Assembly: GCA_943325195.2 (NCBI GenBank) | Contig: CALPON020000015.1 | Coordinates: 1-36,496, forward strand | DNA length: 36,496 bases | DNA from: Sphingobacterium thalpophilum | Lineage (GTDB): Bacteria > Bacteroidota > Bacteroidia > B-17B0 > Aurantibacillaceae | Reading direction: 5' to 3' | Part shown: piece by piece, positions 23,548-31,666 of the stretch | Position numbering within the stretch: position 1 is the first letter of the stretch | Layout: every line of letters starts with the position of its first letter | Made by a program: the position numbers and the translations under genes | Notes under the pieces: model-generated | Told to the model about the DNA's origin: nothing | Seen by the model: the letters and a program-made list of their open reading frames with translations, nothing else | Database searches by the model: none

Positions 23548-23937
23548 TTAGAAAGGAAGATCGTCGTTATCGGTTGAGTTCGCTGTAAAAACTGGTCCAC
23601 TATCAGCAGAACTAGAGGACTGAGTAGATTGTGAAGCAGCAGGCGCTGCCGCGGAAGCACTTCCAGTGCGCTCAATTCTCCAAGCTTCCAGGGTATTAAA
23701 ATAACGAATGCCTTGAGGACCATTCCATTCGCGGCCACGCAGGTTGAATTGAACGCGGATTTCGTCCCCATCACCAAACTGATCCAGCATGCTGCATTTA
23801 TCCTGTGTTACTTGAAAACTAACGTGTTGTGGATAGGGTGTGTTTGCTTCTGTAGTGAGAATGAACTCACGTTTTTGAAAACGATCGCTTACTTTTTGCG
23901 TTTCGAATTTCGATTTCAGGTTTCCGATTACTTCCAT
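23548..23937 (-). CDS. DUF3127 protein with SSB-like C-terminal tip
   Basis: 129 aa. The first 90 residues are the DUF3127 domain (MEVIGNLKSKFETQKVSDRFQKREFIL..., QDKCSMLDQFGDGDEIRVQFNLRGREW), with an OB-fold-like strand pattern. A disordered Ala/Ser/Gln linker follows, and the chain ends DNDDLPF. This layout (OB-like core, flexible linker, acidic tip with terminal Pro-Phe) mirrors single-stranded DNA-binding protein, whose tip recruits repair and replication proteins. The family assignment is from sequence; DNA binding is inference. It ends at an intrinsic terminator. Confidence 0.88.
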   Translation of the reverse strand: MEVIGNLKSKFETQKVSDRFQKREFILTTEANTPYPQHVSFQVTQDKCSMLDQFGDGDEIRVQFNLRGREWNGPQGIRYFNTLEAWRIERTGSASAAAPAASQSTQSSSSADSGPVFTANSTDNDDLPF

Positions 23938-29752: not shown

Positions 29753-31666
29753 TTGGTGCACTACCGCAGCGAAGATATCCGTCCGATTTTAAAAAAATTC
29801 TGGGGCTATGACCAGTTCAGGCCTATGCAGGAGGACATTATTTTGTCCGCTTTGCAGGGGGTCGATACGCTGGCTTTATTACCAACCGGTGGTGGGAAAT
29901 CTATTTGTTTTCAGGTGCCCGGACTTTTACTGGGCGGTACTACGCTGGTGGTTTCTCCGCTGGTGGCATTAATGAATGATCAGGTACAAAACCTTAAGAA
30001 ACGGGGTATTTCTGCGGTAGCTATTTCAGCTGCCATGCAATTTAAAGAAATTGAGATTGCATTGGATAATGCTGCACGGGGTCACGTGCAGTTTTTGTAT
30101 GTGTCTCCTGAACGCCTCCAAAATGAGGTATTCAGGCAAAAAATCGGCCACTTGCCGGTAACACTCATTGCAGTGGATGAGGCCCATTGCATCAGTCAGT
30201 GGGGTTATGATTTTCGTCCTAGTTATTTAGTGATTAAGGAAATTCGTCAGTACTTTCCTGGAGTGGCTATTCTGGCGCTGACCGCCAGTGCAAACGCGCC
30301 CGTGATTGAAGATATTCAGTTACAGCTGCAGTTTTCCAAGCAGAGGGTCTTCCGGCAATCCTTCGAGCGGCGAAATCTCCGCTATGTGGTGCAGAAAGAA
30401 GAAAATAAAATTGAACGCCTTTTGAAGATTATCCGAAATCTGGGCGGCACGGGATTGGTTTATCTGCGCAACCGAAAGAGAACCGAAGAACTGGCGCGTT
30501 TCTTAAAACAGAAAGGGGTTTCCAGTGAAGCTTACCATGCCGGTTTAAAATATGATCAGCGCCAAGAAATACAGCAGGATTGGATCAACAACAAGACACA
30601 AGTCATTTGTGCCACCAATGCTTTCGGAATGGGTATCGATAAGCCGGATGTGCGTTTCGTGGTACATTTAGATTTACCAGAAAGTTTAGAAGCTTATTTT
30701 CAGGAAGCGGGGAGGGCCGGCAGAGATGGAAAAATCGCCTATTCGACTGTTCTCTTCACAGCTGCAGATGTCCAGAAATTGGAGGATGATTTTGTTTCTG
30801 GTTTTCCTGAGCTCGCTGAAATCAAACGCTCCTATCAGGCCATCTGCAACTATTTTCAAATAGCGGTAGGGGCAGGAGAAGGCACCCTGGTGGAGCTGGA
30901 CATGGACAGGATTTGTAAGAGTTATAATCTGAATGCCCGCATTGTATACAGCAGTCTGCGTTTTCTTGAAAAAGAGAATTACATGTCCCTGTTGGAAGCG
31001 GGTATTGAACCTTCCAAACTAATGTTTCTTTTTAACAAAGAACAATTATATGAATTTGAATTAAAACAACCGAAATATGAACCCTTAATCAAAACCCTAC
31101 TACGCAGTTATGGTGGTTTGTTCGACTCGTTTGTAGCCATAACGGAAAGGGATTTGGCCTATCGTGTAAAAAATTCAGTGGCCAATGTTGTCTCGTATCT
31201 CGAATTCCTCCATCAGCAAGGGATACTGGATTATCGTCCCCAGACGGAATTGCCACGCCTCTTTTTTACCATGAGTCGCATGGATGCTAGGTATCTGGAA
31301 CTTAGTCCTCAAAACTATGCACTGCTCAAAGAACGTCAGCGCCAACGCATTGATTCTGTTATCGCCTACACAAACAACGAACACCTTTGCCGGCAATCTC
31401 AATTACTGGCCTATTTTGATGAACAAAATTTCACGGATTGCGGGCATTGTGATGTCTGCATTGCCAAACGCCCCAAAAATTATCAGGTGATTCGCAATAA
31501 AATGCTGTCCCACTTTAAGCAACAGTCCATGAGCCTGGAACAGCTTAAAGAACTGTTCAGCGACACCAATGATGAACTGTGGATAAAAGTAGTTAATGAA
31601 CTGGTAGAAGAAGATTTGATTTATATGAATGGCGCCCTTTATAGTTACCGTGTCAGACAGGTCTGA
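29753..31666 (+). CDS. recQ: ATP-dependent DNA helicase RecQ, short form
   Basis: 637 aa. It unwinds DNA 3'-5' in recombination and replication repair. Walker A is LLPTGGGKS (43-50), Walker B DEAH (142-145) with the aromatic-rich loop ISQWGYDFRPSY, motif III LTASA, motifs V-VI ATNAFGMGIDKPDVR and QEAGRAGRDG. The RecQ zinc-binding cysteines are in the CRQ ... DCGHCDVC segment near 545-565. The chain ends after a short winged-helix-like region and has no HRDC domain. The start must be non-ATG (TTG 29753 or GTG 29756): an in-frame TAA at 29720 and no ATG in between. Its stop abuts the stop of the next gene. Confidence 0.93.
   Translation: MVHYRSEDIRPILKKFWGYDQFRPMQEDIILSALQGVDTLALLPTGGGKSICFQVPGLLLGGTTLVVSPLVALMNDQVQNLKKRGISAVAISAAMQFKEIEIALDNAARGHVQFLYVSPERLQNEVFRQKIGHLPVTLIAVDEAHCISQWGYDFRPSYLVIKEIRQYFPGVAILALTASANAPVIEDIQLQLQFSKQRVFRQSFERRNLRYVVQKEENKIERLLKIIRNLGGTGLVYLRNRKRTEELARFLKQKGVSSEAYHAGLKYDQRQEIQQDWINNKTQVICATNAFGMGIDKPDVRFVVHLDLPESLEAYFQEAGRAGRDGKIAYSTVLFTAADVQKLEDDFVSGFPELAEIKRSYQAICNYFQIAVGAGEGTLVELDMDRICKSYNLNARIVYSSLRFLEKENYMSLLEAGIEPSKLMFLFNKEQLYEFELKQPKYEPLIKTLLRSYGGLFDSFVAITERDLAYRVKNSVANVVSYLEFLHQQGILDYRPQTELPRLFFTMSRMDARYLELSPQNYALLKERQRQRIDSVIAYTNNEHLCRQSQLLAYFDEQNFTDCGHCDVCIAKRPKNYQVIRNKMLSHFKQQSMSLEQLKELFSDTNDELWIKVVNELVEEDLIYMNGALYSYRVRQV

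Follow-up and report, generated by a model that had tools for sequence, protein, structure and literature searches.

The window analysed here, a 36,496-nucleotide stretch of Sphingobacterium thalpophilum DNA, encodes a protein with a domain of unknown function, DUF3127, whose C-terminus reads N-D-D-L-P-F-stop. Is this protein a second single-stranded DNA-binding protein (SSB), as the first-pass annotation proposed, and does it recruit partner proteins through its tip? Our analysis indicates that DUF3127 is probably a genuine second chromosomal SSB-type protein and partner-recruiting hub, which shares or takes over the tip function. This reading rests on the predicted fold, remote homology, tip conservation, a reciprocal tip pattern, and phage gene context.

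Predicted fold and likely remote homology to SSB

The DUF3127 gene, the proposed second SSB gene, is located at 23548..23937 on the minus strand and encodes 129 amino acids from an ATG start. Residues 2–89 match Pfam DUF3127 (PF11325, E 1.5e-26, 92.9 bits versus the curated cut-off of 27), and residues 1–129 match PHROG 4932, named 'single strand DNA binding protein' (E 1.4e-30). The NCBIfam search with the protein returned a chance match only. An AlphaFold2 model, a single-chain prediction built with 75 relatives, consists of a well-defined core (block-mean pLDDT of 89–96) and a tail and linker with block means of 50–62. The predicted OB-fold core, assigned from this model and from its SSB structure matches, spans residues 1–90 (23668..23937, minus strand) and is composed of strands at residues 2–10, 21–29, 37–44, 59–73, and 76–90 with a helix at residues 45–53. 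It is followed by a Ser/Ala-rich linker (residues 91–124; 23566..23667, minus strand), assigned as disordered from its pLDDT and poor conservation, and by the tip D-D-L-P-F (residues 125–129), identified by motif scan and conservation, which occupies 23548..23565 on the minus strand together with the stop codon.

Comparison of the model with the PDB by Foldseek revealed that 49 of the best 50 hits are SSBs, the other being a chain of an RNA-editing complex. The top VIA-align match is the Salinibacter ruber SSB (Z 12.3, 2.2 Å over 90 residues), which also ranks first for a second model, whose lead sequence came from a divergent sub-group (Z 11.6, 1.8 Å over 84 residues). Prediction against OB folds thus yielded an SSB-type fold, and the OB-like core and disordered linker read from the sequence in the first-pass annotation are borne out by AlphaFold2, Foldseek, and VIA-align. 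SsbB-type SSB structures are also similar to the DUF3127 models. The SsbB-type second SSBs of Bacillus, Staphylococcus, and Mycobacterium are PF00436-type paralogues, some of them tipless; like DUF3127, they provide a second OB-fold SSB per genome, whereas DUF3127 is a different family and bears the tip.

PriB (3klw_B, Z 11.7, 2.8 Å over 85 residues) and mitochondrial SSBs score within 1 Z of the Salinibacter SSB and are therefore tied with it, and PriB stays within 1 Z of the SSBs in the second model too. This tie speaks for a reading of DUF3127 as a PriB-like or RNA-binding OB protein, in which the tip is only a docking tag and no single-stranded DNA is coated. PriB shares the SSB-type OB fold predicted for DUF3127; to our knowledge, it has no linker and no SSB tip, unlike the window protein with its tail and DDLPF end.

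Sequence comparison points in the same direction as the fold. The sole hit of a single-sequence PDB search was the Deinococcus radiodurans SSB (E 0.024), which the DUF3127 family profile recovered at E 1.2e-8; 18 SSB sequences, five of them with E < 0.01, score better than any unrelated protein, the first of which appears at E 0.71. When the family was aligned by hhalign with 12 canonical SSBs, the match was strong with the tails included (97%, E 1e-10) and weak with the cores alone (36%, E 6e-5), so remote homology to canonical SSB is likely, with a modest core signal. Canonical bacterial SSBs (PF00436/TIGR00621) accordingly resemble DUF3127 in OB core, disordered linker, acidic tip ending in P-F, and remote sequence similarity; unlike them, the window protein has no PF00436 match up to E 10. 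This absence and the weak core alignment both count against the second-SSB reading. One relative (G290 C87) matches PF00436 at E 9.3e-4, below the cut-off.

Conservation of the acidic tip

We collected 162 complete relatives from genome contigs and genomes, dropping four incomplete or broken ORFs of L083, L124, and L125; 14 of the 162 were second fetches or identical copies, and 148 distinct proteins remained. The PF end is present in 145 of these 148, and in 74 of the 76 that remain once the set is thinned to less than 75% identity. In alignment A1 (75 rows), the mean share of the commonest residue per column is 0.50 in the core and 0.21 in the linker, and reaches 0.84, 0.83, 0.76, 0.97, and 0.97 at the five tip positions. 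The DDLPF end is therefore conserved across orthologues and exceeds chance. Of the two grounds for rejection in the first-pass annotation that computation could address, an unconserved tip and a missing OB fold, neither materialised.

Scanning of the whole genome (2.91 Mb, 98.4% complete) found DD[LIVMF]PF-stop once, at the DUF3127 gene, and the backward-read control pattern likewise once, so the single genome-wide count is weak when taken alone. This equality is what a chance acidic tail would give; the near-invariant PF end of the distinct relatives, preceded by an unconserved linker, contradicts such a coincidence and leaves it a negligible chance.

The exceptions lacking the PF end (L112, L113, and L116) all belong to one family, in which the canonical SSBs keep DDLPF, and are counted against the second-SSB reading, as are two extra DUF3127 copies (L489 in G339 and L225 in G309), whose open frames span 98 and 91 amino acids and lack the tip. 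Other proteins also carry such an end. In the family of genome G012, which we guess to be Weeksellaceae, an SSB-like acidic end, DDFPF or DDMPF, is found on a DnaB replicative helicase (L389, L396, L403, and L490), the DnaB identity being assigned by profile for L389 (G012) and L490 (G327) and by eye for L396 (G360) and L403 (G344). DDLPF is also the end of a SIR2 anti-phage-like protein (L392 in G362; NF042942, E 4e-48, below its cut-off), and NDDLPF that of a protein whose C-terminal domain is of the abortive-infection type (L437 in G320; PF14355, E 5.6e-10). Because DnaB and two defence-like proteins carry the tip, the tip alone proves no SSB.

Reciprocal loss and retention of the tip in two lineages

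Three PF00436 proteins are encoded in this genome, and all are tipless, ending in SSY, PAN, and SAA, a point missed by the first-pass annotation; the gene of the SSY-ending SSB (TIGR00621, E 3.7e-42) adjoins gldD (E 1.2e-67). Across the genus (19 genomes), 18 of 18 DUF3127 proteins of the window's kind end in DLPF, and the matching canonical SSBs (n = 16) comprise three ending in PF, eight in LPY, and five in neither. The difference in PF ends between DUF3127 (18/18) and canonical SSB (3/16) gives a Fisher p of 6e-7, uncorrected for relatedness. Two genomes of the genus have only a short tipless canonical SSB, and one genome (73% complete) has none. The LPY end may still work as a tip, which counts against the second-SSB reading; the end reads GLPY in eight of the 16 (loci such as L183, L184, and L189) and is perhaps a lineage-specific tip.

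In 17 of the 19 genus genomes, DUF3127 carries the one and only DDxPF-stop site, compared with five sites in 19 genomes for the backward control. The exceptions are G303, with the tip EDLPF, and G308, in which DUF3127 was not detected and the single site is not closed by a stop codon. Outside the genus, nine of 12 relatives have at least two DDxPF-stop sites, and comparison of positions placed one on a canonical SSB and one on DUF3127 in all nine. Among these relatives, G315 combines a tipped DUF3127 (TDLPF) with tipless canonical SSBs, and in G318 DUF3127 is missing and a canonical SSB bears the tip. In G320 (91% complete), both DUF3127 and any tipped canonical SSB are absent, which is counted against the second-SSB reading.

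The G012 family presents a similar picture. DUF3127 ends in PF in 35 of 35 near-complete genomes (33 DDxPF and two DDGLPF), whereas 30 of 35 encode a PF00436 protein and 15 of 35 a PF-ending one (Fisher p 4e-8 for 35/35 versus 15/35, ignoring relatedness). A canonical SSB was not detected at E <= 0.1 in five of the 35 (G327, G339, G340, G342, and G356), the lone PF00436 match of G339 overlapping its second DUF3127 copy; 15 more genomes have only PF-less canonical SSBs, or 14 without G337, which was counted as tipless and has one SSB running off its contig. G357 was counted as tipped from a PF00436 match and an in-frame DDxPF-stop, its ORF not being scored by our own SSB profile, and short broken PF00436 fragments in G329, G337, G350, and G355 are left out of these counts.

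For Escherichia coli SSB, published work reports that removal of the tip or of the last Phe is lethal (PMC10164576) and that the penultimate Pro-to-Ser change causes temperature-sensitive growth (PMC10164576; PMC13220808). Since loss of the tip is lethal there, a cell whose canonical SSBs are tipless probably depends on a tip carried by some other protein. Because the canonical SSB is often tipless or undetected in the window's genus and the G012 family, and DUF3127 keeps its tip in every genome of theirs in which it was detected, partner recruitment in these two lineages probably depends largely or wholly on DUF3127, as judged from sequence.

The same lethality and the same family counts could be taken further, to a displacement in which DUF3127 replaced canonical SSB as the essential replicative SSB in some lineages. 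Most G012-family genomes retain a canonical SSB, usually short and tipless, and the absence of PF00436 in 5/35 versus 0/35 reaches a Fisher p of only 0.054, ignoring relatedness; these five genomes are drafts in 3 to 120 contigs, and a very divergent SSB could be missed. We regard such a replacement as unlikely.

Coexistence with canonical SSB in a wider sample

To the second-SSB reading, a wider sample of 50 genomes with DUF3127, compared with 18 lacking it, adds a measure of coexistence. Canonical SSBs ending in PF or PY are present in 45 of the 50, secondary SSB copies being read only in part where a genome was already tipped, so DUF3127 is usually not the sole tip-bearer, a point against the second-SSB reading. 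Only tipless canonical SSBs occur in G007, G012, G059, and G281, and G024 has no PF00436 match. DUF3127 ends in PF in 47 of the 50, and tipped canonical SSBs are present in G269 and G292. Overall, both proteins are tipped in 42 genomes, DUF3127 only in five, the canonical SSB only in three, and neither in none. In all 18 genomes without DUF3127, the canonical SSB ends in PF. DUF3127 thus coexists with canonical SSB, and differs from it in keeping the tip in two lineages where the canonical protein is often without one.

Distribution of DUF3127

DUF3127 matches were found in 171 of 296 genomes of the phylum, nearly always as a single copy; the 125 of 296 without a match are counted against the second-SSB reading. 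By our own count among the genomes listed, with the sort order taken as complete and 105 match-free phylum genomes lying outside that listing, 72 of 73 genomes of the same class carry it. It was also found in 28 of 31 close relatives. Among 14 named control genomes, the Bacteroides one alone passes the cut-off; the 13 outside the phylum gave none over the cut-off and two weak sub-threshold matches at E <= 0.1. A close-relative scan of GTDB contigs returned 64 loci, one of them (L087) in a record titled Candidatus Saccharibacteria, whose contig is probably mis-binned Bacteroidota DNA. Outside the phylum, the analysis covered the 13 control genomes, the GTDB contig scan, and phage records. In the first-pass annotation's proposal of a second, Bacteroidota-specific SSB-like protein, the SSB-like part thus gains support from the SSB-type fold, the linker, and the conserved tip, and restriction to Bacteroidota is plausible only.

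Phage copies and a possible specialist role

DUF3127 also occurs in phages. At E 1e-3, 120 phage records carry a match, and 115 of these are from phages named after Flavobacterium, Polaribacter, Cellulophaga, Nonlabens, or Tenacibaculum. Ten phage copies were read: nine have the PF end, Freya_1 being tailless, and nine have replication, recombination, or nuclease genes within the fetched 3–4 kb, the exception being Dulem virus 40. Examples of such neighbours are the genes for RecT, ERF, YqaJ, NinB, NinG, RusA, primase, or helicase. RefSeq already calls four of these ten copies SSB, and the naming notes on these phage SSBs, where given, rest on similarity. Among viral-contig copies, 62 of 78 complete ones end in PF (80 fetched, two open-ended), and several PF-less copies stop shortly past the core; tailless phage copies are counted against the second-SSB reading. 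The phage proteins (RefSeq SSB, PHROG 4932) resemble the window protein in family, full-length PHROG match, and, mostly, tip; unlike the window gene, they are phage-borne, most are near recombination or replication genes, and some are tailless.

Phage copies occupy the usual place of an SSB among recombination genes, and this setting, with the SSB label of PHROG 4932 and the absence of an SSB tip from PriB, makes the PriB-like or RNA-binding reading improbable. The phage neighbourhoods of RecT, ERF, YqaJ, and NinB genes, the coexistence of both tipped proteins in most sampled genomes, and the fact that paralogous SSBs occur in several bacteria are consistent with a narrower role, in which DUF3127 would be an SSB specialised in recombination or repair, with possible exchange between host and phage, and canonical SSB would perform replication everywhere. 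The near-universal, mostly single-copy retention in the class (among the genomes listed) exceeds what is expected of an accessory repair protein, and canonical tips decay in two lineages while the DUF3127 tip does not; we put this role at slightly below an even chance.

In the literature, nothing on DUF3127 was found beyond a Pantoea phage SSB that is said to hold a DUF3127 domain (PMC8004638), and a search on PF11325 gave none. By title, searches on SSB in Bacteroidetes, Bacteroidota, or Weeksellaceae returned no second tip-bearing SSB, and none of the titles listed for 'DDLPF' was about Bacteroidota. In one source, the canonical Flavobacterium psychrophilum SSB ends in DLPF and a short tipless SSB of Psychroflexus torquis is mentioned (PMC3991886).

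RecQ and gene neighbourhood

The first-pass annotation had taken a RecQ in the same window as support for its proposal. This RecQ is encoded at 29753–31666, 5.8 kb from the DUF3127 gene and on the opposite strand. Profile search detected no RQC or HRDC domain in it, but found the two domains in the second RecQ of the genome (L293). With no detectable RQC or HRDC and an unlinked gene, the argument from RecQ is not supported, and the window RecQ was rejected as evidence for a tip partner. Its zinc-binding match, at residues 525–569, is unusually far from the helicase domain.

No gene cluster around DUF3127 common across the phylum was found. Asparaginase and flavin reductase neighbours occur at 59 and 38 of 63 near loci and at 0 and 6 of 41 diverse loci; because they are confined mainly to close relatives, an operon partner from the neighbourhood was rejected.

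Implications for the SSB system of Bacteroidota

On the reading of DUF3127 as a second SSB-type hub, the OB core would coat single-stranded DNA, as its fold and remote homology suggest, and the linker would leave the tail free and give it reach. The conserved DDLPF tip would dock into the pockets in which repair, restart, and replication proteins receive the SSB tip. In most sampled Bacteroidota, DUF3127 would work beside a tipped canonical SSB, with which it presumably shares the work. More speculatively, the essential SSB hub could have been handed over, partner-recruiting tip included, to the distantly related OB protein DUF3127 in parts of the phylum, leaving it as the only SSB in some genera, with the canonical protein reduced to a tipless coat or lost; we hold this to be doubtful.

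Two SSB-type families seem to exist side by side in many Bacteroidota, and at least one tip is always kept among the 50 sampled genomes. If confirmed, these findings would assign a role to DUF3127, a widespread uncharacterised domain, and would change the choice of protein for rebuilding Bacteroidota replication and repair in vitro. They would also provide a natural system in which DNA coating and partner recruiting may be split between two proteins.
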